Assembly: GCA_029907315.1 (NCBI GenBank)
Contig: JARYME010000023.1
Coordinates: forward strand, 1 to 36,896
DNA from: Armatimonadota bacterium
GTDB taxonomy: Bacteria; Armatimonadota; UBA5829
Length of the DNA stretch: 36,896 nucleotides
Direction of reading: 5' to 3'
This document shows positions 3,176 to 32,227 of the stretch, piece after piece (the first letter of the stretch is position 1; every line of letters begins with the position of its first letter). The notes beneath the pieces are model-generated. The model was given only the letters and a program-made list of their open reading frames with translations. It searched no databases and had not been told where the DNA came from. The translations under genes and the position numbers were made by a program.

Positions 3176-3897
3176 ATCAAGACGGAAACAAAACAGCAAA
3201 TGCCCACTACGATGCAAAGCTCCTTTCCAGACGCCGCCGACTAGTGCAGTGGGTGCTCGCCCCGATCACCATAATCGTGATCGCTTTGGGTTGGAGATAT
3301 CCACTGTTGGGATTCGCTGTGCCTATAGTCATGCTCACAGGCATTGCCGGAGCGTTCATAAACGGTCGATACGTGTGTGGACACCTGTGCCCACGAGGAG
3401 CGTTTTTCGACCGAATTATCGCGCCGCTGAGTCCCGGCAGACCCATCCCGGCATTCCTGCGAACGAAGCCGCTACGGTGGACGCTGGTCGTTCTTCTAAT
3501 GGGTTTTATGACCTACCAAATAGCGCAAAATCCCGGGGACGTTTACCATTGGGGCAGGGTGTTTTGGTTGATGTGCGTAATAACGACAGGTGCAGGTGTG
3601 CTGCTTGCCGTCATCAACCAGCGGACCTGGTGTGCACTTTGCCCAATAGGAACAATTCAGGCAGCAATCGGGGGTAGCAAGGGGGAACTCCTGATAGACC
3701 CCGAGACCTGCCGTGAATGCGGGGCCTGCGAGAAGGTATGCCCGATCAACATCCCCATCGTAAAGCATAAAGCCGAGGGGGTGGTTAGAGAACCGGACTG
3801 CCTTAGATGCCCAGAGTGTATAAGAGTTTGTCCTGTGGGTGCACTTCGGTGGCCCGATTCTGACAAGCAGTTTGCTGCCCAGGAGAAAAACAAATGA
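3172..3897 (+). CDS. NapH/YccM-like membrane 4Fe-4S protein
   Basis: Membrane-anchored electron-transfer protein. Hydrophobic segments lie near residues 20-60, 103-120 and 130-150. Two cytoplasm-facing Cys clusters typical of NapH/NosR C-termini follow the membrane segments (CGHLCPRG and CALCPIG). The C-terminal part carries a 2x[4Fe-4S] ferredoxin domain with [12 protein letters not shown] and [12 protein letters not shown]. The GTG start at 3172 overlaps the dehydrogenase stop (GTGA), with GAGG about 8 bases upstream, so translation is probably coupled. No periplasmic nitrate or nitrous-oxide reductase gene is nearby, so its redox partner cannot be named. Its position right after an isocitrate-dehydrogenase-like gene and before exported PHP proteins is unusual. 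Confidence 0.88.
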
Positions 3898-4955
3898 TCC
3901 GACTGAAGTATGTAGCTCTAACAACCGCACTTCTTATCGCCGCGCTCACCGCCACGCTAGCCGAGCCGCCCAGGCACGACTTCCCGCCTGTTGGCTGCTG
4001 GCAGGTGTTGTGCGGAGATTTCCACATGCATACGATCAACTCCGACGGCAAACTTACGACCCGCGAACGCGTCGAGGAATCGTACAACCTCGGCTATGAC
4101 GTGATAGCGATAACCGATCACGGAAAGCCCGGGTCATACAGGGTGGCAAAATACGTCGCGGAGCCGCTGGGGCTCCTAGTGCTACCCGGCTTCGAAACGG
4201 GAGTGCTGGGCAAGGAACACTACGTGGCGCTGGGCGTTCCCGCAACGTTCAAACCGCGTGATCCGCACAAGTTGTCCGAAAAACCCGGCGACAAAACAGT
4301 TTATTATCGAGATGAAATGCTGGCGATAGCGGAGGCGGGAGGTATTCTTTTCCAAGCGCATCCGCCAAACGAGTGGCGCGATCCCACAGATTGGGGAGTC
4401 AGAGAAGGAATCATTGTAGGCGTTGAGATACAAAACGGGTACGGAAAAGTTGAAGAAGGCTCCGGACCTTTGGGCGGCGTCCACTGCTACCCGCATTCGT
4501 TCGACTGGGCGCTAAAGCACAACTTGGCATTGTTTGCAAACACCGACATACATCCTGCGCGCAAGCAGGGTCAGCAGCCGGTTACCCTGGTATTCGTCGC
4601 CGAGCGCACACCTGCCGGCGTGATGGATGCAATACGTGCTCGGCGAACCGTGGCGTGGTTCAACAACGTAGTCTGCGGGCGAGAAGAGCTTCTGACCAAG
4701 CTTGTAGAAGCCTGTGTATTGGTCAAGCCCTCCGGATCCACGCAGCTTGCCTTTGAGAACCGAAGTCCCATTGCGTTCCGAGTGGCCCTGGCAGGTAGCA
4801 CCGTCGAAGTGCCGCCATATGGGAACGCAGTGTGCGAATGGACCGGCGGAAACAGCGCAACGCTTAAGTGGCTAAATGTGTGGACAAGCCCCACAAGCAA
4901 TTTGGAAACTGAGATCAAAATCGGCGAACTTGCGGCGGCAGCAACTTCAAAGTAA
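3894..4955 (+). CDS. exported PHP-domain metal-dependent hydrolase, copy 1
   Basis: Predicted exported member of the polymerase-and-histidinol-phosphatase (PHP) superfamily, which hydrolyses phosphoester bonds with a multi-metal centre. An N-terminal signal sequence ([16 protein letters not shown] onward, likely cut near Ala-Glu at LA/EPP) precedes the catalytic domain. Motifs are HMH at residues 44-46, NSDG, ITDHG, a Glu in PGFETG, AHP and TDIH. The C-terminal ~80 residues form a small beta-rich domain ending in LKWLNVW. ATG 3894 overlaps the upstream stop as ATGA and has AGGAG 8 bases before it. The substrate is unknown; export argues against a DNA-polymerase or histidinol-phosphatase role. 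It is a close paralogue of the next gene. Confidence 0.88.
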   Translation: MIRLKYVALTTALLIAALTATLAEPPRHDFPPVGCWQVLCGDFHMHTINSDGKLTTRERVEESYNLGYDVIAITDHGKPGSYRVAKYVAEPLGLLVLPGFETGVLGKEHYVALGVPATFKPRDPHKLSEKPGDKTVYYRDEMLAIAEAGGILFQAHPPNEWRDPTDWGVREGIIVGVEIQNGYGKVEEGSGPLGGVHCYPHSFDWALKHNLALFANTDIHPARKQGQQPVTLVFVAERTPAGVMDAIRARRTVAWFNNVVCGREELLTKLVEACVLVKPSGSTQLAFENRSPIAFRVALAGSTVEVPPYGNAVCEWTGGNSATLKWLNVWTSPTSNLETEIKIGELAAAATSK

Positions 4956-5001: not shown

Positions 5002-6039
5002 ATGATTAGAAAGTATTACTCGAGGTTTGTTTGCATTCTTGCCGTTTTGGCAATCGTTGCGGGCACTGCGGCGTTTGGTCAGTCGCAGCGCTTCGATTTT
5101 CCCAAAGTCGGCAACTATTACGTCCTGCGCGGCGATTTTCACATGCACACAATCAACTCAGACGGCAGCTTTACTACACGCGATCGCGTCGAGGAGTCTA
5201 AGGAACTCGGTTACGATGTTATCGCTATAACAGACCACGGTCGGACAAGGGCATACCGAGTAGCGAAATATTTGGGTGACCAACTCGGACTGATAGTAAT
5301 CCGCGGTCACGAAACAGGGATGAACAAGGGCGAACACTACGTGGTTCTGGGTGTGGATTCGACATATACGCCGATCGATTCCCACCGGTGGGCAAGAAAC
5401 AGAGGCGAGGAAACAATCTTCTACCAAGACGCGATGAAAGACGTGGCAAAACACGGCGGTATCATCATCTGGGCACATCCGCACACTGGTCTTAACGAAT
5501 GCACGATTTGGGGTGCCGAACAGGGAATTATAGTAGGAGTTGAGCTGAAAAACGACGTCGTGGGTGAAGGTTGGAACACGGAAAAGAGCCATGGGACGAG
5601 TTGGTACCCGTCGGCAGTCGACTGGGCACTCAAGTACAATTGGGCGATGCTTGCCTGCACCGATGCTCACGGAAAGCGCAAGCAGAACCCGGCGGTAACG
5701 CTTGTGTTTGCGAAAGAACGCAGCGAGCAAGGCGTATTGGAAGCTATACGGGCTCGCAGAACTATTGCCTGGTTCGATGGCATGCTGTGGGGCCGCAAGG
5801 AGCTTTTGTCAGAACTGATGAGCGCGATGGTAAAAGCAGAGCGAACCCCCAACGGCAAGCTTGTGCTGAAAAACCTGGGTCCCGTCGACCTGGACGGCGA
5901 AGTGCAAGGCGCAACTGGAAAGGTCTTTGACTTGAAACCTTACGGCGAAACTGTTGTCGACCCGCCGGACAAGACCCTTACAATACGGTGGCTGAACGTG
6001 TGGTACGGCCTGAAGGAGAACTTGACGAGGGTTTACTAG
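5002..6039 (+). CDS. exported PHP-domain metal-dependent hydrolase, copy 2
   Basis: Paralogue of the preceding gene with the same layout: a signal sequence (residues 1 to about 27, cut near FGQ), a catalytic PHP domain with HMH at 47-49, NSDG, ITDHG, Glu in RGHETG, AHPH and TDAHGKRK, and a C-terminal beta domain ending in IRWLNVW. It differs at the third motif, where copy 1 has AHPPNEW and copy 2 has AHPHTGL, adding a potential metal-binding His. The shared NSDG to ITDHG segment is nearly identical, indicating tandem duplication with later divergence. A GAGGTGA-like site lies about 10 bases before ATG 5002, 46 bases after the copy-1 stop. Substrate unknown. Confidence 0.88.
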   Translation: MIRKYYSRFVCILAVLAIVAGTAAFGQSQRFDFPKVGNYYVLRGDFHMHTINSDGSFTTRDRVEESKELGYDVIAITDHGRTRAYRVAKYLGDQLGLIVIRGHETGMNKGEHYVVLGVDSTYTPIDSHRWARNRGEETIFYQDAMKDVAKHGGIIIWAHPHTGLNECTIWGAEQGIIVGVELKNDVVGEGWNTEKSHGTSWYPSAVDWALKYNWAMLACTDAHGKRKQNPAVTLVFAKERSEQGVLEAIRARRTIAWFDGMLWGRKELLSELMSAMVKAERTPNGKLVLKNLGPVDLDGEVQGATGKVFDLKPYGETVVDPPDKTLTIRWLNVWYGLKENLTRVY

Positions 6040-7569: not shown

Positions 7570-10158
7570 TCATTGCCATTTGATCTCGAGGGTAACCGAC
7601 TCAGGCTTATTAGAAAACCGCACGGCCAACGTCTGGGCGTCTTCCTCGACCAAACATTCGGCCGGTGAAACCTCAGCAGGCCGCCGTCCGTTCTTGGCTA
7701 CACGCACGATTCCTTTTGTCCCTTCAGGACCCGACACCCTGAAACGGCTATAATCCGCTGTTTCTGTCTTTTCTTCGAGCCTGTACGCACAATGCAGCAA
7801 CCTAGGCTCACCCGCAAGCTGGTTCGTTACATCGCGGTAGAATGCGCACCTCTGCGGACCGACCACAGGATCCTTCACGACAGGCAGGTTGGGGTCCAGA
7901 ATATCGACGTACCAACCCTCGAGCCGTTTTTCGTCTTCAAAGGTTCGAACGGCAACGTAAGGTCCCCTGCGGACAGCCATATGCCGTTGCTCGCGATATC
8001 TCATGCCGGCTTTACCACAAGCATAAGCTGTGATCCTGCGTAGGATATCCGCCGCCTCCTTCGACGATGCGAAATAGGACGGTGCAATTCCCACATGGAT
8101 CAAACTGCCTTTGCCGCAGGGATGCTCAACCACCGCACAGTCGTCTCCCGGACCGGAATACAGCTGTCCTTGTAGAAGTTTGTCCGAGCAAAGCGAAACG
8201 AGCGTAAGGGGAAATTGCGAGGGAACTTCGAACCAGCCCTTGGGCTCGAACAAAGGTTTACCGCGGATGCTGAACTGCGGAGTCTGTGGGTCGATGCTTA
8301 CCTCAACAACGAACTGATTCTCCATCTCTACTTCCAAAATGGGCTTCGAATCCGACGAAACAGGGAACCTGTAAACCCAGAATGCGTCGCCATCGGCAAA
8401 GCGCACCCGGCCGTTGAAAAAGCTCCCGCCGTCTTGAGCGAGGTATTCCTTTTCCTGTTCGCTCCCAGCTTTGAAGAAAGCTTTAACGACGCCGTCGACA
8501 ACAAGCCTCACCCAGGAAACCGCAGCGCCCCAGCCGTCCTCGGGAAATGCATCTCGAAACCTGACGTATATCGCATCGCCGCTGTCGATCTGCTCAGCAA
8601 ATCTTGTGAGGTCGTAGCGATAGACTCTACGGTTTCTTGCGTCCCTGACCGCCTTCTTTTCACGATCAATCTCCTCATAAACACCCGGACCTATGTGTGA
8701 AACGAGCCTACACCGTGCCCCCAGCCGGGCATACAGGTCTGCCTGCGGCGAGTCGTATCCCCGCTTCTTCCACCACTCCGGCAGGTTGTTGTAAGCATCA
8801 GTCCCCCCGAAAAAGACCAGCACACCACCCTGTTTAACCCAGTCGGCAAGGGCCTGGTTGTACTCCGGCTTCATAGGTTTCATTATGTCGTACGAGAGGA
8901 GAATCACCTTGTAAGGGTCAAGGTAACCCCTCTCTGGCGTTCGCTCCAGTTGAGCTACCTGAACGGGTATCCCCCTGTAAACCAAAGGTAGGGTAAGCCC
9001 GTAGAAGCAGTCGTAGTTGCTCATATGAGGCGAACCACGCTGCCAACCCATAGAGTCTGCTACAAATACGGCAATGCCCTGCGTGCCTGTGTCCCACCGT
9101 GCGTCCTTGTGGTTGTGCATGTCCTGAAGCGCGTTTACAATGGAACCTATCTCCGTGCTAAACTCATCCGGAACGCGCCCATAGATGCGGGTTGGCCAAG
9201 GCATAACCTCATAGGCGTCGACCTCAGGAAACATAAGCGAAGCGACGAGGGTTTTGTGATAGTTGTCCCGATAGTCCTCCATAGTGCGGTCGGGATTGTC
9301 CTCAAGAGGGTCCATTAGAAACCACAACCGCTTGCCCGATCCTCGCACAAGGTTATACAAACTCGAGTACTCGAGAAAACCGTTTTCGAATGTGCGCTCA
9401 GCCATCACGCCTTCATATCGACACGCAGAGCGAGCCGTGCCAGTCCATACCTGCCCAATAATTTCCTGAAGGTTCGGTAGAGCAAAGCACTGGTAGTGTG
9501 GGTAAACAATCCCCCAGCCGTAGTAGTTCACAGCCGAATGACACGCCACCATACGACGAACCCGCGGGTTTTGTTTCTCCGCGGCATCCATGATGGCTTT
9601 CACCATATCGTACTCCATCTTTGCCTTGAGCCGCTCGGATTTCCATCGGGCCTGAACCGAGCTAGCTGGATCCAACCAGGGCTCGCCGTAGTACTCTCGC
9701 CAAGCCTGCTTAAACGACTCGGAATATCCAGCGGATGCGAAGAACTCAGGCTCCTCCGGAATTACCGCAGACGTGCCGTTGGCAATAGCATTCGTAAAGT
9801 AGTCGAGCGCCGCTTTTATCCTGTTCGGAGTGGGAACCATATAGTACGAACCCGGACCGCACGTGAGCAAAGTTCCGTCGGCCGTGGTTTGTACCTCGCC
9901 GCGGTGCTCCTCGACATACTCCTCACCTGTTCTAAAGCCATACATCGTTTGGACCACGTAGCCCTTGTCCTTCCAGCTCTGTATGCGTTCTTTGATGTCG
10001 GAGTAGACAATTACGGCGTCCGTGCGGATGTCATTGTCGAGACGGTATTCGGTAGGAGTCTGGAAAGAAGTGTAGGGCTGCATCGTCTTATAATCACCAG
10101 TGGACGCCTCTGAGGCGGCCAACAAGCACACTAACACCAAAGCGAGACATGAGATCAT
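7570..10158 (-). CDS. exported glycoside-hydrolase-like protein with GATase-like middle domain
   Basis: A large predicted exported protein (862 residues) whose architecture resembles beta-galactosidase-type hydrolases. It has a signal sequence (MISCLALVLVCLLAASEAS), then a probable TIM-barrel region to about residue 390 containing VIPEEPEFF as a candidate acid/base segment. A glutamine-amidotransferase-like flavodoxin fold follows at about 395-500 (IAVFVADSMGW, VILLSYDIM, GGVLVFFGG), as in the trimerisation domain of family-42-like enzymes. The C-terminal half is beta-sandwich-like. The start is taken as ATG 10158 because GGAGGTGA lies 8 bases upstream; a GTG at 10170 is itself part of that ribosome-binding site. 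Specificity is unknown, and the catalytic assignment is weak. Confidence 0.75.
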   Translation of the reverse strand: MISCLALVLVCLLAASEASTGDYKTMQPYTSFQTPTEYRLDNDIRTDAVIVYSDIKERIQSWKDKGYVVQTMYGFRTGEEYVEEHRGEVQTTADGTLLTCGPGSYYMVPTPNRIKAALDYFTNAIANGTSAVIPEEPEFFASAGYSESFKQAWREYYGEPWLDPASSVQARWKSERLKAKMEYDMVKAIMDAAEKQNPRVRRMVACHSAVNYYGWGIVYPHYQCFALPNLQEIIGQVWTGTARSACRYEGVMAERTFENGFLEYSSLYNLVRGSGKRLWFLMDPLEDNPDRTMEDYRDNYHKTLVASLMFPEVDAYEVMPWPTRIYGRVPDEFSTEIGSIVNALQDMHNHKDARWDTGTQGIAVFVADSMGWQRGSPHMSNYDCFYGLTLPLVYRGIPVQVAQLERTPERGYLDPYKVILLSYDIMKPMKPEYNQALADWVKQGGVLVFFGGTDAYNNLPEWWKKRGYDSPQADLYARLGARCRLVSHIGPGVYEEIDREKKAVRDARNRRVYRYDLTRFAEQIDSGDAIYVRFRDAFPEDGWGAAVSWVRLVVDGVVKAFFKAGSEQEKEYLAQDGGSFFNGRVRFADGDAFWVYRFPVSSDSKPILEVEMENQFVVEVSIDPQTPQFSIRGKPLFEPKGWFEVPSQFPLTLVSLCSDKLLQGQLYSGPGDDCAVVEHPCGKGSLIHVGIAPSYFASSKEAADILRRITAYACGKAGMRYREQRHMAVRRGPYVAVRTFEDEKRLEGWYVDILDPNLPVVKDPVVGPQRCAFYRDVTNQLAGEPRLLHCAYRLEEKTETADYSRFRVSGPEGTKGIVRVAKNGRRPAEVSPAECLVEEDAQTLAVRFSNKPESVTLEIKWQ

Positions 10159-10268
10159 TTCTGCCGTCACCTCCGGTGCATGTTACGAGCAAGAGCACAC
10201 ACTTCGCAAGGAGAACTGCTCAGGCGCGTCAGTGCAGAACCCAGGGGCGCTTGAATTCGTCATTTGAA

Positions 10269-10296
10269 TTGACACCAGCCTCGTGCGTGATATAAT
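10269..10296 (+). promoter_or_regulatory. near-consensus sigma-70 promoter of the S41 protease operon
   Basis: TTGACA (10269-10274), a 16-base spacer, and TATAAT (10291-10296). Both hexamers are perfect. The predicted transcript would start at about 10303, 45 bases before the first protease gene, immediately at the base of a hairpin. Confidence 0.8.
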
Positions 10297-10346: not shown

Positions 10347-11756
10347 ATGAAAAACTATAAAGCGTCTATTTTAGTCCTGCTTATTGCAGCCTTCTTCGCC
10401 GCCGGCTGGGCAGCAAGAATTGCATCTATAGCGCAAGAACGAGCAGCCATTCGGCAGTTCGGCGCTTCTCCCGTACGGGCGCCTGGAGTTCCGATAGCCG
10501 CAACGCGCCTGGACAGCGCAGCGGATATCGACCTCGGCCCTTTGGAGGTAATGCTCACCGTACTGCGAAGCGTACGGGAGCACTTCGTAGACCCCATAAA
10601 ACCGAGCGACGAAGGACGGATGGCCCGTGAGGCGCTGCGGGCAATGTTGGCTTCCCTGGATGATCCCAATACGCGTTTTCTGGACCCCGACCAAATGAAG
10701 CTTGTGGGCGAAGCCCTCAACGGGCAGTATCACGGTATAGGTGCATTTCTAGCCATTAAGAAGATAAAGGTGGGCAACATCCAGGAAGAGCACTTGGTAG
10801 TAATAACACCCATCGACAACGGCCCCGCAGCCAAAGCCGGACTTAGACCTGGCGACGATATCGTAGCAATCGATGGCCGAGATGTTCTTCCGCTTGATCC
10901 ATTCCAGCGAGCAAGTGAGGTTATCAAAGAAGAGCGGAAGAAGGCTGTCGACAAGGACGTAATAAGAAAGCACATCGAGTCGGAAACGAAGCGAATAGAA
11001 GAAGGTATCCCCATACTGAAGGCTGAGCGCACGCTGATAAGTGAGGACGACAAGGAGTTCGAACTCACCGTTGTCAGAAAAGGCACACCGAAACCGATCA
11101 AGGTCAGAATTAAGACCCAAGCTTTCAGTGTTGACCCGGTCTCGTGGAAGTTGATCAACAACGATAGATTCGCCTGCATTAGAATAAGCTGTTTCACCGA
11201 CCGCACTGCTGACGAGCTTGAAGGAGCAGTGCGCGACCTGAAATCCAAGGGTGTTAAGGGGGTTATCCTAGACCTGCGGAATACTGCGGCCGGCAGTTTG
11301 GAAACCGTGCTGTCTGCAGCCAAAGTCTTCATACCCGGCAGGGTCTTTGCGGTGGAGCACAAGTCGCGCAATCGTAAGCTGCCCATCAGGGTGGAGCAGT
11401 GTTCCGAAGATCGTGTTTGGAGCGGTCCGCTTGTGGTTCTAGTAAATTCTGGAACTGCTCGGATGGCGGAGGTTCTTGCCGCGGCGCTGAAGGATAACCT
11501 GTCCACAAAGTTGGTGGGGGAATCTTCGTATGGGGATCCGTCCGCGGTGACGCTCGTAGAACTTCGAGATGGCTCCGGCATAACAATGACGACCGGTAGG
11601 TTGGTCCCGCTCAGGAGCCCGGACATCTACGGAAAAGGCCTTTCTCCCGATGTACCGGTAGCTTCGGACGGGACGCAAGACAAACAACTGAACGAAGCCG
11701 TCGAGCTCCTGCAGTCGCTCGCGGCTAAGACCATGCAGGCGCGGGCTGGGAAATAG
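10347..11756 (+). CDS. S41 (CtpA/Prc-type) peptidase homologue lacking the catalytic Ser and Lys
   Basis: Membrane-anchored or exported homologue of C-terminal processing peptidases. An N-terminal hydrophobic segment (about residues 6-23) is followed by the helical region with TRFLDPDQMK, a PDZ domain (from GIGAFL, about 130-255) and an S41 core. Aligned to the next gene, the nucleophile motif SASASE is replaced by GTARMAE, so the Ser becomes Arg372. The general-base motif FGKG is replaced by YGDP, giving Asp397. The 25-residue spacing between these positions is preserved and the frame is intact, so this looks like a maintained pseudoenzyme rather than decay. The PDZ domain also carries a charged, Lys/Glu-rich insertion of about 55 residues absent from the paralogue. 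It probably binds substrates or regulates the active partner encoded 2 bases downstream. No clear ribosome-binding site precedes ATG 10347. Confidence 0.85.
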   Translation: MKNYKASILVLLIAAFFAAGWAARIASIAQERAAIRQFGASPVRAPGVPIAATRLDSAADIDLGPLEVMLTVLRSVREHFVDPIKPSDEGRMAREALRAMLASLDDPNTRFLDPDQMKLVGEALNGQYHGIGAFLAIKKIKVGNIQEEHLVVITPIDNGPAAKAGLRPGDDIVAIDGRDVLPLDPFQRASEVIKEERKKAVDKDVIRKHIESETKRIEEGIPILKAERTLISEDDKEFELTVVRKGTPKPIKVRIKTQAFSVDPVSWKLINNDRFACIRISCFTDRTADELEGAVRDLKSKGVKGVILDLRNTAAGSLETVLSAAKVFIPGRVFAVEHKSRNRKLPIRVEQCSEDRVWSGPLVVLVNSGTARMAEVLAAALKDNLSTKLVGESSYGDPSAVTLVELRDGSGITMTTGRLVPLRSPDIYGKGLSPDVPVASDGTQDKQLNEAVELLQSLAAKTMQARAGK

Positions 11757-11758
11757 AT

Positions 11759-13132
11759 ATGAAGCGGATAAGTATTGACAAGTTAGTACCGGCGCTCTTT
11801 CTGGTGTTCTCGGCATTTGTCGTGGGTTTTCTCAGCCCAGATGTTTTGGCAAGCCGCGGCGACCTGCGCAAAGTCACAGCCAGTCTTCAGCTGCTACCCC
11901 AGCGGCTGGAAGGCCTCCTCGTACAGGCTCAAGATCAAGATAAGGAACAAAGTGAGCCTCTGCCTGTCATCGAGACATATTCGGCGGTACTTGAGCGGCT
12001 GAAAGCCGACTATTACGGTAGCGTAGATGAACGCAAGCTCACTTACAGCGCGATTCGCGGAATGCTGAGTGCGCTGGACGATCCTTTCACCCGCTTCCTC
12101 GACCCAGAAGAGTACAAGAGTATGCGGGAAGAAAACGAGGGAAATTTCACCGGTATAGGAGCCCAGCTGGATACAAATAAGAACGGCGAGGTATACGTTA
12201 AGGAACCGTTACCTGATACGCCCGCAATGCGGGCCGGCGTGAAAGCCAACGATGTAATCGTTAGCGTAGACGACAAGCCGATAAAGAATCTCGACATCGA
12301 GCAGGTCGTAAAAATGATCCGCGGACCGGCCGGGACGAAAGTCAAGTTGGGACTTAGGCGTGCAGGGGTGCCGAAAATCATCTATAAGGTCATAACGCGC
12401 CAGGTCGTGCAGTTCCGCATGGTCAAGTCCCAGATGTTGGACGAGAAAAACGGCATTGGCTACATCCGCCTATATCAGTTCAACGAACAGTGCGACGCAC
12501 AGTTCGACCAAGCCTTGACGCAGCTTGAGAAACACAATCTGAAAGGCCTGATATTGGACCTGAGAGGCAACCCTGGGGGACTCCTGCAGGCAGCAGTTGA
12601 TATCGGAAGCAGATTTATTCCCAGCGGTCCGGTGGTTGTTATCCAGGAGCGCGGCGGGCAAAAGAACCCCATTTACGTAAAAGAAGAGAAGCACAACCAC
12701 AAGAGATATCCGTTGGTGGTGTTGGTCGACAAGCATAGTGCCAGCGCCTCAGAGATTGTCTCTGGCGCGATCAAGGATACCGGTGTCGGAACTCTTGTGG
12801 GAACGAAGACATTCGGAAAGGGACGAGTGCAAACCATAATGCCGCTGCAAGACGGTTCGGCGGTTGCCATCACCACAGCCAAATACCTCACGCCAAGTGG
12901 AACCGACATTCACAAGAAGGGTATCGAACCTGATATCAAAGTTGATCCTCCGGACACATTCGAGGTAGGAGACCTCAAGACGGACGTGCAGCTGACGAAG
13001 GGCATCCAGGTTTTGAAGGTCCAGATGGGTCTGCTGCCAAAGAGCGTTCTTGACGAGCTGAAGAGGGCCGCACAAGCTGGCTCGACATCCGACACCGCTG
13101 TCGGTGCCGCCGGCCGAACCGCAAAGCCCTAG
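11759..13132 (+). CDS. C-terminal processing peptidase, S41 family, catalytically complete
   Basis: Serine protease of the CtpA/Prc family that trims C-termini of exported proteins. It has an N-terminal membrane segment (residues about 10-30), a helical region with TRFLDPEEY, a PDZ domain (GIGAQLDTNKNGEV to about residue 210) and the S41 core. The Ser-Lys dyad is intact: Ser329 within HSASASE and Lys354 within TFGKGRVQ, with a Gln four residues after Lys. Length (457) is ordinary. It begins 2 bases after the stop of the inactive paralogue, so the two are probably made together in a fixed ratio. A polysaccharide deacetylase follows, which points to cell-wall or envelope maintenance as its setting. 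Confidence 0.95.
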   Translation: MKRISIDKLVPALFLVFSAFVVGFLSPDVLASRGDLRKVTASLQLLPQRLEGLLVQAQDQDKEQSEPLPVIETYSAVLERLKADYYGSVDERKLTYSAIRGMLSALDDPFTRFLDPEEYKSMREENEGNFTGIGAQLDTNKNGEVYVKEPLPDTPAMRAGVKANDVIVSVDDKPIKNLDIEQVVKMIRGPAGTKVKLGLRRAGVPKIIYKVITRQVVQFRMVKSQMLDEKNGIGYIRLYQFNEQCDAQFDQALTQLEKHNLKGLILDLRGNPGGLLQAAVDIGSRFIPSGPVVVIQERGGQKNPIYVKEEKHNHKRYPLVVLVDKHSASASEIVSGAIKDTGVGTLVGTKTFGKGRVQTIMPLQDGSAVAITTAKYLTPSGTDIHKKGIEPDIKVDPPDTFEVGDLKTDVQLTKGIQVLKVQMGLLPKSVLDELKRAAQAGSTSDTAVGAAGRTAKP

Positions 13133-13157: not shown

Positions 13158-14150
13158 ATGTCCCCAAAAAGAAAAGCCAAACGGAAGAGTTCCGAGTCAA
13201 GACTTCTGTTGGCAGTGCTAACAGTCGCCGTAGTTATAGGCGTGGCTGCCGGAAACTACCTCGGAAGGATGAGCACCAACAGCGCGGCACCACCGATCGA
13301 TGCAACCTCTCCGAGCGGGAAACACGGTAACCAACCCTCCGTCGTCCGAGAAGAACGGTCAGAACACGCTTCGGCCGCAGACCGGCTTCCCGAGCGCCGC
13401 GACTTGAAAGCTGAGGCATCGCAGCCCAGTGCTGATACCCACTCGAGTCCAACTGAGAACCCCAACGCCTCCAAACCCGAAGAGCACAGTACACACAGTT
13501 CTGCTGCTTTGCTCGAGCCTCGCAAACCAAGAGGCTTAGCGGGCGGCAGAGAACTGGCCCAGAGCAGGAGTTCGAATCTCATCGCACTCACGTTCGACGC
13601 GGGAGCTTCGAGCGCTCCAACTGCCAGTTTGTTGGACACTTTGAGATCTGCCGGGTTGCACGTGACGTTCTTCCTAACGGGTAAGTGGTGCGAACGCAAC
13701 GAAACCCTCGTCAGAAGAATAGCAAACGAGGGCCACGAGATCGCTAATCACACCTACTCACATCCGGACCTGCGCAAGCTGAGCAGTGAAGCGATTCGCG
13801 AAGAACTGACAAAAACGGATGAGATAGTAACGCGGATAACGGGACAGCATTGTGCTCCCTACTTTCGGCCGCCCTACGGCTCACGAGACAGACGAGTAAT
13901 TGAAGCAGCCCGCCAGGCAGGTTTCACCTGCGTTTATTGGTCTGTAGACAGCTGGGACGCGTTCAAGCGTGGCATAACGCCAGACGAAATCAAGACGCGC
14001 GTGCTGTCAAAGGCGAAGGCCGGCGATATTGTGCTCATGCACTGCGGAAGTCCCGCCACAGCCGAAGCGCTGCCCGAAATAATCCAGGAGCTGGAATCAC
14101 GCGGGTTGCGGATAGTGCCTGTCTCAGAGCTGCTTTCTTCGCAGGAATAA
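13158..14150 (+). CDS. membrane-anchored polysaccharide deacetylase (NodB domain)
   Basis: Carbohydrate esterase family 4-like protein that would remove acetyl groups from peptidoglycan or another N-acetylglucosamine polymer. A basic N-terminus and one membrane segment (LLLAVLTVAVVIGVAAG) are followed by about 110 residues of low-complexity Ser/Glu/Pro-rich linker. The NodB domain then shows LTFDAGAS (motif 1, with Ala in place of the second Asp of TFDDG), NHTYSH (motif 2, two metal His), FRPPYGSR (motif 3), VDSWD (motif 4) and DIVLMHCG (motif 5). The start is uncertain: ATG 13158 lies 25 bases after the protease stop, while GTG 13104 would overlap the protease gene by 29 bases and add 18 residues. 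Neither has a clear ribosome-binding site. Confidence 0.9.
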   Translation: MSPKRKAKRKSSESRLLLAVLTVAVVIGVAAGNYLGRMSTNSAAPPIDATSPSGKHGNQPSVVREERSEHASAADRLPERRDLKAEASQPSADTHSSPTENPNASKPEEHSTHSSAALLEPRKPRGLAGGRELAQSRSSNLIALTFDAGASSAPTASLLDTLRSAGLHVTFFLTGKWCERNETLVRRIANEGHEIANHTYSHPDLRKLSSEAIREELTKTDEIVTRITGQHCAPYFRPPYGSRDRRVIEAARQAGFTCVYWSVDSWDAFKRGITPDEIKTRVLSKAKAGDIVLMHCGSPATAEALPEIIQELESRGLRIVPVSELLSSQE

Positions 14151-16640: not shown

Positions 16641-19600
16641 CTACGGGTTGACCCATTCGAGCTGGTCGAGACCGCCGCCGCCAGTACCCGGCACGCAGCG
16701 CATGTGGAGCATACGGATCCGACCGGTTCCGGAAACGTACTTGTTAGTGCAGATTCCGGTCACTACAGCCATTCTGCCGATGTCACTCGGATCGCGCGGC
16801 CAGTTCTCAAACCAGTTGAACAACCGCACGCACTTGATTCCGGTCATTCGAGTGTTCGGCGGGTAGTCGGTCTCAGCACTTACGTCGCTCACTGTACCGC
16901 TACCGTCATCGATCCAACACCACATGTATCTGTAAGCCGAATCCCAACCGTAACCGACGACTTTTCCAACCACTTTCACCAGCACACCCTCGGTGTTCAA
17001 CCCGGTAGCAAACACCGCAGGCGGACCAATCTGATCAATGACAGCCGGTGTTCCCTGACCGGCGCCCGGGTTCGGAACATCGCTCAGCCAACCGCCGCCG
17101 AAGGACTTCACTGTCACCTCCAGGAACGGAGGCAGCGAAGCAGGCGGGCCGACAGTGGGCATCTCGGTTAACTGGAGTTCGCGAGGCCTGTCCATATAGT
17201 TGTTTTGAGCGGTTCCGGTGCTGTCAAGCTGGCCTTTCATGTGAGTAATTGTGTCGCCTATTTGCAGTCCGGGCGGCAGATACTGGGCATTCGATCCAGT
17301 GTAGACCTTCAGCCCTGAAACACCGGCTTTCGGATCGCTGGTCTTGTTCATTTGCTCGACCCAGAACCACTTACCGGCGTCGTAGCCCCCGACATCACCC
17401 ACATCGACGTAGGTCACGACAAGCGGATTCGTCGTGCTGTCGAAAATCGCCGTGCCGTCTGAGGCCCTCTTAATCACACCCAGCTCCGAAGCAATCGGGA
17501 TCACGTGCACGTCGCCGGGCTTACCGGGTCTGAGAGCACGCGCTCCCGGTTCGTGCTGATCCAAGATGCAATACATGTCGACCCTGTCTCCCTGCTTCGG
17601 CAGAGTAATACCGGTGGTAGCCAGGGTATCTACATCGCAGAGAGCCTGATATCCGTCATACGGCAGCTTCACCGTAAAATGCTGATTGGCAGGGTCTACT
17701 GACACGACCTCAGCATCAAGCACGCGGTAGAAGCTGTAAAGCACGTTGCCTGTGAAGTAGGTGCCGCGGTCCATGGTTCGCACCGGCAGCTGTGCATTAT
17801 TATGGGACAGCACAACCGGCGCCTTCGTCGGCGTTACGACACCTGCCGAGTATCCGCTGGCTTTATCGTAGTTGCCTATCACAACAACGCGGTCCAGTTC
17901 GACAACGTCTGGATCGCCAGCGCGAACGTTTATCTTGACGCCCATATTGACGTTGAGCATCTTGGTGTCGCCGACGAAGTAGTAGCCGTTGAAGCCCTTC
18001 CTATTCTTCGCCGGATCAGCTGCCTGGCGAGTGACCACACCCATCGCGCAGACCGTTCGACCGCCGGGCCGATAACCGCCTATGGACCACTTGTAGACGA
18101 TCTGGGTCGCCACCAGCGGCCAGACACGCCCGTTTACACCGGTGGTCGTGCCACCCAGCGTCACGCTGATATTGCTCTTGGGCCAGTCGGTCTCACCCAG
18201 GTTGTCGGGCCACGTGCCGGTGGCTCCGTGAGCATTCGCGACGTTGAACTCCGCAGGGTATGTTGCACCAGGATACGTCTTGCCCGAGTAGACCTCGTCA
18301 GGCTGCTGGGCAGGATAGATCACGTTGTTCGCACCCTCAGTGGCATCAATCACGTAGTTGCCGTCCGCGTCGGTAACGGCTTCCGTCGTCCAGGTGCCAT
18401 AGGCATCGGTAACGCTGCACTTGACTGTGACGTTGGCGGCCGGGTAGCCCGTGTAGCCTTCAGTTATGCGGCCTGCGATCTTACCCGCCGTGACGTATAT
18501 CTGCAGCGAACCTTCCTGAACAGGCACCTGCGGATAGTGCACATCGAACATATAAACCTTGACCGTGTGCCAACCCGCAGCGGAACCCCGTGCCACGGTT
18601 GCATCGTTCCAGTAGGTGTTTTGATATCCGTTTCGGCTGCGCAGCGTCATAGACCAGCCGCTGTTGGGATCACCCACTGTTCCCCAACCCAGACTCGGAC
18701 AGTGGATCTTAACTGAGGCAATATCGTTCACCGTCTGCGTGTTGTTTCGGTCCTCAGCCACCACCGTAATGCGTGTCGGCGTATTCCCATCGGCAATGAT
18801 AGGATTGGACACAGCATTGCCGGGTGCCACTGAACCGGACACGAATACAGGGATGTACTCGCCGGGCCAATAGACCTCCATCCGGCTGGTGGTAGTGTGG
18901 GAGGTCGGCACTCCGAGAGGCTCTTCGTACAGGCCGAAGAAAGCCGTAGTAGTGCCGATAATGGTGTTCTGACCACCGGTGATAAGCACGTTACCGGCAG
19001 GATCAGCCTTTATAAAGAATGGCCATTTGTTGCCCGAGTAGTTCGTACCTACACCGTAGGTCTTGAACGACGAAGGCGGGTTGTTGTAGGGGTCAATATT
19101 TGCGATTTGGTCAAGCGGAAACTTGTAAACTGTCTGATGCGGAACGTCGGTGTCGCGGGGATCAGTATAGTTGTAGTTGTCCGCATTGACCATGCCCGTT
19201 ATTCGTGAGATCCAAACAGTCCCGTTGTAGATATCAATGCCCGTGGGCCGGCTGTACTGCGGATAGCGTATAGGAGTCGGCTGCCAGGGCGTCATCTGAT
19301 CCGTATCCCACACAGAGATCTCGCCCTTCTCCGGATATGCACCGTTACCTACGGCTCCCGCGACGTACAGGTAGTTGCCCACAAAGCAACAGCCCAGAAA
19401 CGTATCGTCTATCGCACCGCCGTACGCAAGTGGTGTTCTGATATCCGGAGGAGCAGGAGTTGCACCCTTACCGTATGCCAACCGGCTGTTGGTCGAAGGC
19501 GGTACACTAGGCGCGAAGTATGTTTCTGCGATCCTAAAGGTATCGCCTTTCCCTGTAACAGCGATTCCCCGACCCTGTTGGCAGATCTTGGTGGCAACCT

Positions 19601-20285
19601 GCACCCACTTCGTGCCGTCCCACCTGAACTGCCAATATCTTGCGTTTGAGCGGTCTTCGATGTAGAGATTGTCGTCTTCATCGAAGTCGAGGCCCCAAGG
19701 TGCACTGCCGCCGAAACCCTCGGTCGGCACGGGCAGCATACCCTTGAGCGTGCCGTCGGCGTAGAACTCGTATACTCCCTTAGCTATGCCGCCGGCGTTA
19801 GACCAGTTCGAAACGTAGATTCGCCCGTAGAGCTCGCTGTTGGGGTTGCGGTTTATAGTAATGCCGTAGGGTCTCCAACCTTCGGAGGTGCCGTCGGGGT
19901 TCACCTTCTCCCATACGGGCACCAACATCTTGTTGTCCGGCGGATCACCAGGACCGTACACTGCCGCCCCAGTAGCACTGACTCGAACTTTATAGTTGCC
20001 GGCGCTCGGGACCGGTGATTGGCTTGCCGGATCCCACTGGAGATCGGCGTGCATCCCCTTCGCGCAATGGCTGTCCGGCGCTGTGAACGACCAGGACTTC
20101 GCCACCCAGCCGTCCGAAGTCCGGACGATCTCCACTGTAACACTGGCAGCGTCTTTGTTTAGGAGGTAAGTGATCTGGTAGGGACAATCACCCGTCAGAC
20201 TTACCTCGTACACGCCTATGCCTGCCCAAGACGCACCAGCAGCCAGACAAGCAATGCATAGGACTGCGAAGAACACTTTCCTCAT
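16641..20285 (-). CDS. very large exported surface protein (Ig-like, beta-propeller, CarboxypepD-reg-like, OB-like modules)
   Basis: A 1214-residue predicted exported protein of unknown function. It starts with a signal sequence (MRKVFFAVLCIACLAAGASWA). An N-terminal FlgD/Ig-like domain covers about 22-110. A long region to about 470, with repeated WGLDFDEDDNLYIEDRS-like and GRIYVSNWSN-like elements, suggests an NHL-type beta-propeller. A beta-sandwich region follows, then a carboxypeptidase-regulatory-like domain at about 600-690 (KIAGRITEGYTGYPAANVTV). Further beta domains precede two OB-like modules at about 925-1055 (WFWVEQMN, GLKVYTG, LQIGDTI) and 1055-1214 (KSFGGG, LVKVVGKVVG, WIDDGSG). 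The final module is related to the C-terminus of both neighbouring minus-strand proteins. A purine-rich GGGGGGAG site lies about 9 bases before ATG 20285. It has no sorting signal that I recognise. Confidence 0.82.
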   Translation of the reverse strand: MRKVFFAVLCIACLAAGASWAGIGVYEVSLTGDCPYQITYLLNKDAASVTVEIVRTSDGWVAKSWSFTAPDSHCAKGMHADLQWDPASQSPVPSAGNYKVRVSATGAAVYGPGDPPDNKMLVPVWEKVNPDGTSEGWRPYGITINRNPNSELYGRIYVSNWSNAGGIAKGVYEFYADGTLKGMLPVPTEGFGGSAPWGLDFDEDDNLYIEDRSNARYWQFRWDGTKWVQVATKICQQGRGIAVTGKGDTFRIAETYFAPSVPPSTNSRLAYGKGATPAPPDIRTPLAYGGAIDDTFLGCCFVGNYLYVAGAVGNGAYPEKGEISVWDTDQMTPWQPTPIRYPQYSRPTGIDIYNGTVWISRITGMVNADNYNYTDPRDTDVPHQTVYKFPLDQIANIDPYNNPPSSFKTYGVGTNYSGNKWPFFIKADPAGNVLITGGQNTIIGTTTAFFGLYEEPLGVPTSHTTTSRMEVYWPGEYIPVFVSGSVAPGNAVSNPIIADGNTPTRITVVAEDRNNTQTVNDIASVKIHCPSLGWGTVGDPNSGWSMTLRSRNGYQNTYWNDATVARGSAAGWHTVKVYMFDVHYPQVPVQEGSLQIYVTAGKIAGRITEGYTGYPAANVTVKCSVTDAYGTWTTEAVTDADGNYVIDATEGANNVIYPAQQPDEVYSGKTYPGATYPAEFNVANAHGATGTWPDNLGETDWPKSNISVTLGGTTTGVNGRVWPLVATQIVYKWSIGGYRPGGRTVCAMGVVTRQAADPAKNRKGFNGYYFVGDTKMLNVNMGVKINVRAGDPDVVELDRVVVIGNYDKASGYSAGVVTPTKAPVVLSHNNAQLPVRTMDRGTYFTGNVLYSFYRVLDAEVVSVDPANQHFTVKLPYDGYQALCDVDTLATTGITLPKQGDRVDMYCILDQHEPGARALRPGKPGDVHVIPIASELGVIKRASDGTAIFDSTTNPLVVTYVDVGDVGGYDAGKWFWVEQMNKTSDPKAGVSGLKVYTGSNAQYLPPGLQIGDTITHMKGQLDSTGTAQNNYMDRPRELQLTEMPTVGPPASLPPFLEVTVKSFGGGWLSDVPNPGAGQGTPAVIDQIGPPAVFATGLNTEGVLVKVVGKVVGYGWDSAYRYMWCWIDDGSGTVSDVSAETDYPPNTRMTGIKCVRLFNWFENWPRDPSDIGRMAVVTGICTNKYVSGTGRIRMLHMRCVPGTGGGGLDQLEWVNP

Positions 20286-21544: not shown

Positions 21545-22207
21545 CTACTTCCTGCGTCGGATGCCGAACCCCGCGAGACCGACAAGACCGGTCGCCAAGG
21601 CGAGCATGCTGCCGGGCTCAGGAACGGGCTCGCGAACGAGTCGGAACATATTCTCGATCGTCTGACCCGGCTGGATGTCATACACCGCTGAGAACTGCGG
21701 CGCCGTAGAAGTGCCGTTCTCCTGCGGGTTGAACGTGTAGAGCAACTGGTCGCCCTTGTAAAGCCTCACGAAGAACGCTTCCGGGTCCGGGCTGACCGGC
21801 TTGATGTCCGGCTGGGTACCAGTTACACCACCCCAGTTGTCGTCCAGATCATTGGTCGCGCTGGATTCGTTCCACGCGGTCAGTTTAAACTGCGTCGCCG
21901 GATAACCGGACTTTGCAGCCACGGTCAGTTTCCACTCCATCACGACATAGTGCGGCTCGGGAGCTCTAATCTCGCGGAAGTAGTAGTTCGGCTCAGAGCC
22001 GGCGAGATACATAAATACGACCGACGGACCTGGCGTCTGGGAGTTGCGACCCGTGGTTCCAGTTCCATACTGATTGATGGAACCGGCGTTCGCACCATTC
22101 AGGTCGCTCACTTTGAGCTTGATCACCCACGCCGTGTCAAGAGCAGCGGACGCTGCCGTCGCCAGTGCTACGAGCATGACGACTGAGAGAACGATTAGCC
22201 TTTTCAT
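21545..22207 (-). CDS. PEP-CTERM sorting-domain surface protein
   Basis: A 220-residue exported protein with a signal sequence (MKRLIVLSVVMLVALATAASA), a beta-rich body of about 160 residues and a complete C-terminal PEP-CTERM signal: VPEPGS, a hydrophobic span (LALATGLVGLAGFG) and the basic tail IRRRK. Proteins of this type are cleaved and sorted to the surface by an exosortase, often together with exopolysaccharide. No exosortase gene is in this window. The start is taken at the second of two adjacent ATGs (22207; first at 22210) because GGAGGTGA then has a 4-base spacing, as in the neighbouring gene. The frame stays open upstream to 22351, but the sigma-54 promoter lies there. Expression is probably RpoN-dependent. 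Confidence 0.88.
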   Translation of the reverse strand: MKRLIVLSVVMLVALATAASAALDTAWVIKLKVSDLNGANAGSINQYGTGTTGRNSQTPGPSVVFMYLAGSEPNYYFREIRAPEPHYVVMEWKLTVAAKSGYPATQFKLTAWNESSATNDLDDNWGGVTGTQPDIKPVSPDPEAFFVRLYKGDQLLYTFNPQENGTSTAPQFSAVYDIQPGQTIENMFRLVREPVPEPGSMLALATGLVGLAGFGIRRRK

Positions 22208-22333
22208 CATTTCACCTCCTCCTCTCTGCTTTAGAGATGCGACTGTTGATGTAGATTTGCCGCTCCTTCTTGTGCTCATCAATTCGCTGTCCCCTTTCTT
22301 CTCGAGTTTCGAGCGATGTGCCCACAGCATAAG

Positions 22334-22351
22334 CTGCAAATTTCGTGCCAA
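22334..22351 (-). promoter_or_regulatory. full-consensus sigma-54 (-24/-12) promoter of the PEP-CTERM gene
   Basis: Minus-strand TTGGCACGAAATTTGCAG contains TGGCACG, four bases, then TTGCA, with exactly 10 bases between the invariant GG and GC. This is the classical RpoN consensus. The predicted start at about 22325 leaves a ~115-base leader before the PEP-CTERM start. Confidence 0.75.
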
Positions 22352-29983: not shown

Positions 29984-32227
29984 ATGAAACCGCACTTGCC
30001 TCTTCTCAACCGACACACCAAATCCAAATCCGACAACAGCAGCAGATATTCGATCAACCTGCTGAGGATAACCATCGCTGCGCTGACGATCGCCGCGCTT
30101 TCGTTTTTGCTATCGATTCACATGCTGCCTAACAAAGTGACGCTGAAGGTCGGCGATGTTGCCCCGGAGGACATAATCGCTCAGCGGACAGTGCGCTACG
30201 TAGACACGACGCAAACGGAACTGCGAAGGGCTCAGGCAGCAGCAAGCGCGGGCAGGGTATTCGATCCAGTGCCGAACGCGACGGACCAAGCCCTCGCAGC
30301 CTTGCGCAGCATAGTACGCACGATTGCGGCTGCTCGACAAATCGAAGGCTTCAGATCAGACGCTCGCGCCTTGAGCGTGATCAGGGAGCGGGTGAGTCCG
30401 CTTGTCGGCACACAGCTCTCAAACGAGACACTCACGTGTCTGCTTTCTTGCGATACTGCAGCACTGCAAGCTATCGAGGAGAAAGCCGCAAACGTGGTGA
30501 CCACCGTTATGAGCCGCGAGATAAAGGAGGATCCGGCTGAGCTAAGAACGGCTCGCAAGCACGCTCTGTCCGAAGCCCAAAAAGCAGCATCCGAACCGGT
30601 TTTTCGAAAGGCGATCAGCGAGCTAGCATCAGCCGTAATTCGTCCCAACCAGGTCTACAACGAACAGAAGACGCTAGAGAGACAGGAACGCGCCAGGCGA
30701 GAGGTGCAGCCATCATACGCGATGATTATGAGGGGTGAGAAGGTCATCGCGAAAGGCGAAAAAGTCCTGCCAGAGCACATTGAAAAGTTCGAGGCTCTGG
30801 GACTTCGCCGACCAAAGCTCCAGCCGGAGTCGGTGGTTGCAGTCACGCTGTTGGTAACCGCGGCAGTGTTGCTGGTTGCGACATACCTGCGCAGATTTCA
30901 TCCGGAAGTTTATGAGAACACGAAGGCGTTGGCGCTGCTGTCGATTCTCGTTCTTGTGAGTACGTTCGCACTGCGAATCGGGGGCGCGTTGCTTGGTATC
31001 CAGTTGAGCCCTGAGCAGGTGGGTTATGTAGGAACACTGTGGGTTGTCGCTGCGGCGATGTTTATTGCGGTGCTTGTAGACCGCCAGGTGGCAGTCCTGG
31101 TAACTGCGCTGCTTTCCATTGTCCTAGCGACGGTGCTTTCGAATGAACTGCGTTATGCTTCCGGAGCTCTTATAACCGGATTGGTTGCGATATACTGCGT
31201 TGCGGACATAAAGGGGCGCCAGGATCTGCTTCGCACGGTAGGATGGATATCGGCAACCGGAGTCCTGCTGGTATGGGTCTACGGCGCCATAACCGGTGAC
31301 TCCGTCTCGGATATGGTGGCAGGAACTTTTTGGGCCGGCGTGTTGGTACCGTTTGTGGCAACCACTTTGTTCTTCTTCGGAACCATTGCGCTCGAAAGGC
31401 CGTTCGAGCGCGTGACGCACCTATCGCTTCTCGAACTCGCCGACACAAACAGCCCGCTGCTCAGACGGCTGCTGATGGAAGCCCCCGGAACGTATACGCA
31501 TTCGCTCGCAGTGGGACATTTGGCGGAAGGAGCAGCTGCGGCAATAGGTGCGGACACTTTGATTGCCAGGGTGGCCTCCTATTACCATGACATAGGCAAG
31601 CTTAGGCGGCCACACTTTTTCATTGAGAACCAGCACGTGGAAAACGTTCACGACGGGATTAACCCAACGCTTTCCACGATAGTCATAACAAGCCACGTTC
31701 GGGACGGAATAGAGATCGCCAAGGAACATCGTTTGCCGAAAATAGTGCAGGACGTAATAGCCCAGCACCACGGAACGTCGTTGGTTCAGTACTTTTACAA
31801 TCAGTTCACCGACGAGTTCGACCCGTCTACTGCTGTCGAGCAGCAGTTCAGGTATCCCGGTCCGAAACCTCAGACCAAGGAAGCCGCAATCGTGATGCTG
31901 GCGGACTCCGTTGAAGCTGCGTCGCGGACGCTGGACAAGCCGAGCGTCGCGAAAATAGAGACGCTCGTTAACCGAGTGGTCGCCGACAAGCTGCGAGACG
32001 GACAATTGGACGAATCCGAACTGACTTTTCGAGAGGTCAGCAAAATAACCACGACGTTTGCCAAAGCGCTTATCGGCACCATGCACGCAAGGATAGAATA
32101 TCCGGAGCCGATACAGTCCAATGAAAGGAAGGGGATTACAAACGCAGATTCTGATTCGGAACGAACAACAGCGCAAGGTGAACACTCAGCGGCTGCGGAG
32201 GACGGCTCGACGGCTGCTTTCAGCTGA
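29984..32227 (+). CDS. pgpH: 7TM receptor-type HD phosphohydrolase (PgpH-like)
   Basis: A 747-residue membrane protein of the PgpH type, known elsewhere to hydrolyse cyclic di-AMP. One membrane helix (about residues 22-45) leads to an extracytoplasmic 7TMR-HDED domain (about 50-280), then seven hydrophobic helices (about 285-470). A cytoplasmic HD domain follows with HSLAVGHLAEG, HDIGK (His535, Asp536), TSHVRDG and AQHHGT. Homology ends at about residue 712 (ALIGTMHARIEYPE). The last ~35 residues are low-complexity and overlap ybeY in another frame. The ATG 29984 start has no strong ribosome-binding site, only 13 bases after yqeY, so coupling is plausible. Confidence 0.93.
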   Translation: MKPHLPLLNRHTKSKSDNSSRYSINLLRITIAALTIAALSFLLSIHMLPNKVTLKVGDVAPEDIIAQRTVRYVDTTQTELRRAQAAASAGRVFDPVPNATDQALAALRSIVRTIAAARQIEGFRSDARALSVIRERVSPLVGTQLSNETLTCLLSCDTAALQAIEEKAANVVTTVMSREIKEDPAELRTARKHALSEAQKAASEPVFRKAISELASAVIRPNQVYNEQKTLERQERARREVQPSYAMIMRGEKVIAKGEKVLPEHIEKFEALGLRRPKLQPESVVAVTLLVTAAVLLVATYLRRFHPEVYENTKALALLSILVLVSTFALRIGGALLGIQLSPEQVGYVGTLWVVAAAMFIAVLVDRQVAVLVTALLSIVLATVLSNELRYASGALITGLVAIYCVADIKGRQDLLRTVGWISATGVLLVWVYGAITGDSVSDMVAGTFWAGVLVPFVATTLFFFGTIALERPFERVTHLSLLELADTNSPLLRRLLMEAPGTYTHSLAVGHLAEGAAAAIGADTLIARVASYYHDIGKLRRPHFFIENQHVENVHDGINPTLSTIVITSHVRDGIEIAKEHRLPKIVQDVIAQHHGTSLVQYFYNQFTDEFDPSTAVEQQFRYPGPKPQTKEAAIVMLADSVEAASRTLDKPSVAKIETLVNRVVADKLRDGQLDESELTFREVSKITTTFAKALIGTMHARIEYPEPIQSNERKGITNADSDSERTTAQGEHSAAAEDGSTAAFS

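Follow-up and report, generated by a model that had tools for sequence, protein, structure and literature searches.

Results

A tandem pair of S41 genes at one locus

The window, meaning the whole stretch of 36,896 nucleotides of Armatimonadota DNA analyzed here, contains two S41 genes in tandem, designated copy A and copy B (Table 1). Both open reading frames were unbroken and separated by only 2 bp, and they were preceded by a predicted promoter, called as a match to the sigma-70 consensus. The intact frame of copy A, the close spacing of the genes and the strong promoter had been described in an earlier note on this DNA, and all three were found again.

Table 1. Features of the S41 tandem locus, with positions counted from the first nucleotide of the window
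Feature	Position	Strand	Evidence
Sigma-70-like promoter, TTGACA-16 nt-TATAAT, TG before −10 (extended −10)	10269-10296	+	12/12 consensus match
Copy A, catalytically dead S41/PDZ protein (pseudo-CTP), 469 aa, hydrophobic N-terminal helix	10347-11756	+	
Copy A-specific PDZ insertion, ~35 aa, ~residues 185-219	10899-11003	+	Length counts; AlphaFold2 helices
Copy A Arg372, Ser nucleophile position	11460-11462	+	Alignment
Copy A Asp397, catalytic Lys position	11535-11537	+	Alignment
Copy B, S41A carboxyl-terminal processing protease (CTP) with intact dyad, 457 aa	11759-13132	+	
Copy B Ser329, nucleophile	12743-12745	+	Alignment
Copy B Lys354, general base	12818-12820	+	Alignment
Polysaccharide deacetylase (PF01522), directly 3' of copy B	13158-14150	+	Longest ORF from 13104, ATG 13158

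Both products scored above the Pfam S41 cut-off and possess PDZ domains. In the domain search, copy B was matched by PF03572 with 204.7 bits, by PDZ_6 and by a CtpB_N-like domain, and it reached 360.7 bits against TIGR00225, the model of the CTP subfamily with a cut-off of 218.6 bits. Copy A was matched by PF03572 with 105.4 bits and contains the same domains as copy B despite a TIGR00225 score of 202 bits, which is under the cut-off. The order of the domains, with a membrane or N-terminal dimerization region, a PDZ domain and the S41 core, is shared with CtpA from Pseudomonas aeruginosa and Helicobacter pylori and with CtpB from Bacillus subtilis.

An alignment to P. aeruginosa CtpA placed Ser329, Lys354 and Gln358 of copy B at the canonical positions, so that copy B, like CtpA and CtpB of MEROPS family S41A, keeps the Ser-Lys-Gln set. 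From its domains and the dyad, copy B is an S41A CTP predicted to cleave substrates at their C terminus. Arg372 and Asp397 of copy A aligned on the Ser and Lys of copy B with the same spacing of 25 residues, as had been noticed by eye before, and the position of Gln358 is occupied by Val. Copy A lacks the Ser-Lys dyad of the S41A CTPs but retains the S41 core and the PDZ fold. A third S41 protein was not found in the genome of the window, a metagenome-assembled genome of 3.3 Mb in 186 contigs with a completeness of 97%.

Other genes in the window were also inspected. A gene for an 866-aa protein (7570-10170, minus strand) lies immediately 5' of the pair on the opposite strand, also in genome G002, and its product gave no Pfam match at an E value of 0.001, the same result as for a 1,214-aa protein (16641-20285, minus strand). 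Two genes with similar "GDFHMHT" starts of their products adjoin each other (3894-4955 and 5002-6039), again also in G002, and the first of them yielded a sub-threshold match to a PHP domain. The product of 21545-22351 (minus strand) carries a C-terminal PEP-CTERM motif, and 29984-32227 encodes a 7TM receptor with an intracellular HD hydrolase domain.

Distribution of the pair and loss of catalytic residues

The pair was followed through the family, order, class and phylum, with the families being sampled rather than covered exhaustively. Read from the DNA, 61 genomes from 22 families had copy A directly upstream of copy B with both genes on one strand, and the reverse order never occurred; in further genomes beyond these 61, A and B were positioned on contig ends. 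Numerous other families of the Armatimonadota contained B-type enzymes only. Frame decay of copy A was looked for in the related genomes, and none was seen. Outside the Armatimonadota, a contig scan with a single peptide pattern recovered only two S41 proteins, which were more distant and scored better as B-type.

All 64 A copies were without the catalytic Lys, with Asp at this position in 51 of them and N, Q, L, T, E, S, R or H in the others. The Ser position was occupied by G, N, R, S, K or A, and Ser itself was kept in 10 of 64 copies. Loss of the Gln following the Lys position, which had been listed before as a further sign of inactivation, applies to copy A of the window but is not a general trait because this Gln was retained in 25 of 63 A copies. 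All B copies with a readable site kept Ser, Lys and Gln, and an A-type copy without catalytic loss was not seen among the 64. Since the Gln and the Ser were each retained in part of the A copies, the Lys is the constant loss. P. aeruginosa CtpA depends on this Lys, as its K327A exchange abolishes activity (PMC11021448). Some families possess A copies with the Ser but without the Lys, so that the Lys was probably lost before the Ser. Because none of the 64 A copies kept the Lys and every B copy did, neither chance nor local decay accounts for the pattern. Dead and active paralogues are co-encoded and co-conserved, as in a pseudoprotease/protease partner pair.

Conservation among the A copies was also used to search for a replacement of the dyad elsewhere in the protein. 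Neither a Ser nor a Lys residue reached 80% conservation across A in the alignment, the best candidates being Ser410 with 0.77, Ser103 with 0.73 and Lys163 with 0.70, and a replacement Ser/Lys was rejected on this basis. Alternatively, copy A may have acquired a new catalytic or ligand-binding activity independent of copy B, comparable to the S41-like modules of IRBP, which bind ligands and do not perform proteolysis. IRBP, which shares the S41 fold, was among the fold matches of the structural model of copy A, and the frequent Asp at the Lys position together with a Thr370 that is invariant among the A copies would agree with such an activity. A constant catalytic set was not visible, however, because some A copies lack the Asp and the residue at the Ser position is free to vary, and the constant place of copy A beside copy B would be left unexplained, which renders this possibility very unlikely.

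Copy B of genome G010 (L042, 8609-9995) is composed of two overlapping open reading frames, probably due to a frameshift in the assembly or in the gene. Genome G193 contains an S41 tandem (L115, 3495-4952 and 5292-6776) with Ser, Lys and Gln kept in both genes; it stems from a recent duplication of its own and does not belong to the A/B group. In genome G016, a third S41 protein, only distantly related (L093, 2483-3793), has Ala in the column of the catalytic Lys and may be another inactive copy, although the alignment is weak at this site.

Origin and selection of copy A

Trees were built without the catalytic columns and were unrooted. In a tree of 124 rows, A and B formed the two sides of one branch with an SH-aLRT value of 100, and in a 67-row tree without overlong branches, the bootstrap and SH-aLRT values of this branch were 100/100. 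In the tree, copy A has a single origin. The dN/dS ratios, calculated for pairs with unsaturated dS, ranged from 0.07 to 0.27 for A and from 0.04 to 0.16 for B. Copy A is under purifying selection. The identity between A copies relative to that between B copies was 0.79 in the dimerization region and 0.86 in the PDZ domain, and 0.58 and 0.65 in the two parts of the core.

These data also bear on the possibility that copy A is a functionless duplicate in decay, or that dead copies arose many times independently. Copy A evolves faster than copy B, and long branches can group wrongly; nevertheless, the single branch was recovered with the longest rows left out, the A copies share an insertion in the PDZ domain, the frames are intact and the dN/dS ratios are well below 1. 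Decay into a pseudogene was rejected on the basis of the frames, the dN/dS ratios and the conservation, a repeated origin found no support, and both may be regarded as extremely improbable. The occurrence of the pair in 61 genomes of 22 families, the single origin and the purifying selection bear out the earlier view of a retained pseudoprotease beside its active sibling.

The PDZ domain of copy A

The length of the PDZ domain between two fixed points was 55 to 83 residues in 61 of 63 A copies and 27 residues in nearly all B copies, with a maximum of 38. In the AlphaFold2 model of copy A, the insertion consists of two helices from residues 187 to 198 and 203 to 219. Only the A copies of G194 and G196, both of family f29, were without it; these could have had a separate origin or could have lost the insertion later.

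In CtpB, Arg168 of the PDZ domain is crucial for substrate sensing (PMC12749690). Arg188 of copy B is located 141 residues before the Ser, the same distance as for CtpB Arg168. Arg or Lys was present at this position in 80 of 81 B copies, and an Arg equivalent by position was present in only 3 of 63 A copies. It had been proposed that copy A binds substrate or gates its sibling. Plain substrate binding by A is weakened by the loss of the PDZ Arg and by the helical insertion in its PDZ domain, and copy A would more readily be understood as a gate or a partner of copy B. The observation at the locus was confirmed, and the interpretation placed on it is partly supported.

Copy A could still act as a separate substrate-binding or chaperone-like adaptor of copy B without replacing a subunit of the dimer, similar to NlpI or LbcA, which are used by CTPs of other bacteria. 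Like copy A, both are non-catalytic, and elsewhere they are tied to the control of cell-wall hydrolases, but they are TPR lipoproteins and not CTP relatives, whereas copy A is a protease paralogue. The retained PDZ fold with its additional helical hairpin would suit an adaptor, as would the fact that the PDZ domain is the best-conserved part of A. The loss of the substrate-sensing Arg opposes this explanation, and so does the similarly well-conserved N-terminal dimerization region, which would be superfluous in a monomeric adaptor. An adaptor function is unlikely, albeit not far-fetched.

Structure models

The AlphaFold2 model of copy A, calculated from an alignment of 10 sequences, had a mean pLDDT of 79.3 and a pTM of 0.74 and matched CtpA, CtpB and the D1 protease with Z scores of 25 to 33. 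It was closer to the resting chain 8sxf_B (TMq 0.57) than to the active chain 8sxf_A (0.46), with the active and resting chains of the CtpA-LbcA entries being assigned from the front/back description in the respective paper and from the scores. Likewise, the Z score was 30.7 with the resting structure 4c2e and 26.1 with the active structure 4c2c. A linked A-B chain was obtained by reading through one stop codon (locus L117, TAG read as Gly). Its B half was nearest to active chains (4c2c, Z score 34.8; 8sxg_A, 34.2), and its A half was matched to the resting 4c2e with a Z score of 29.6; the pTM of this model was 0.43, with the dimerization regions at low confidence and no usable interface. In the models, copy A was nearest to resting and copy B to active CTP states. 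The alignments comprised only 7 to 10 sequences, and the state preferred by AlphaFold2 gives a hint only and does not amount to a measurement.

Gene neighborhood of the pair

In families f5, f31, f32 and f33, and partly in f29, a gene for an M23 peptidase containing a PcsB-type coiled coil precedes A-B, together with genes for FtsX and FtsE where the contig extends that far, leading to the order ftsE-ftsX-M23-A-B. The family to which the window belongs has no such ftsEX neighborhood near the pair. A polysaccharide deacetylase gene is located directly 3' of copy B in 15 loci of seven families, including the window. CtpA of P. aeruginosa degrades cell-wall hydrolases (PMC6050968, PMC11021448), which makes it reasonable to infer that the A-B pair has a part in hydrolase control.

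Discussion

Each N-dimer of CtpA from P. aeruginosa or H. pylori has a single active subunit, the other being at rest (PMC11021448, PMC12749690). This asymmetry is not universal because both subunits can be active in B. subtilis CtpB (PMC11021448, PMC12749690). The oligomers of CtpA and CtpB are the product of one gene, so that either subunit can rest, whereas the pair described here is encoded by two genes, one of them without the dyad. The chances appear about even that copy A is an ancient, functional pseudo-CTP kept as the non-catalytic partner of copy B, plausibly as the resting half of an N-dimer, in the control of wall hydrolases. Following a gene duplication, one CTP copy would have lost the Lys, and later in many lineages the Ser, while retaining its dimerization region. 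The two proteins would most likely pair via their N-terminal dimerization regions, with copy A filling the position of the resting subunit required in every N-dimer of some CTP homo-oligomers. If copy A is permanently resting, opening and cutting would always fall to copy B. The altered PDZ domain of copy A may form a fixed lid, or it may offer an adaptor or a substrate a place to dock. The complex would probably trim or remove cell-wall hydrolases, a target suggested because several families possess the order ftsE-ftsX-M23-A-B and several have the deacetylase gene next to copy B; the lack of ftsEX around A-B in the family of the window speaks against it.

A more far-reaching version of this proposal is that the asymmetry of the CTP N-dimer has become genetically fixed, with A always resting and B always cutting, after a single loss of the Lys before much of the Armatimonadota diverged; this is tentative and held with somewhat less than even confidence. 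Alternatively, copy A may be an inhibitor that lowers the activity of copy B in mixed dimers, with the A:B ratio setting the dose. Dead subunits are frequently dominant negative, and the ratio would be fixed by encoding both proteins together with only 2 bp between the genes. Every sampled copy A was co-encoded upstream of copy B, however, so that the inhibition would be constant, and the data do not separate inhibition from activation. Inhibition as the function of copy A is considered quite unlikely.

Active and inactive paralogues in one assembly occur in ClpP/ClpR of cyanobacteria and plastids and in the alpha and beta subunits of the mitochondrial processing peptidase, which differ from S41 proteases in fold and catalytic chemistry. 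CspC and CspA of Clostridioides difficile are reported to be soluble pseudoproteases that form a heterodimer (PMC12880746). The CspB/CspA/CspC system is an example of pseudoproteases working with related active proteases, as proposed for A and B, but it belongs to the subtilisin family and to spore germination, whereas A/B are S41 proteins in another process. A published S41 or CTP protease-pseudoprotease pair was not found in the open-access literature searched. As far as this literature shows, A/B would be the first described S41 protease/pseudoprotease pair.

The data suggest that one subunit of a two-part protease has been evolutionarily fixed in the "off" state and yet kept as a partner across much of the Armatimonadota. 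Being a natural pair, A and B would make it testable whether the asymmetry of the CtpA N-dimer is needed or incidental. If they form the dimer, the resting half would have a non-catalytic job. The pair also points to a regulation of cell-wall hydrolases in this phylum, which has been little studied.
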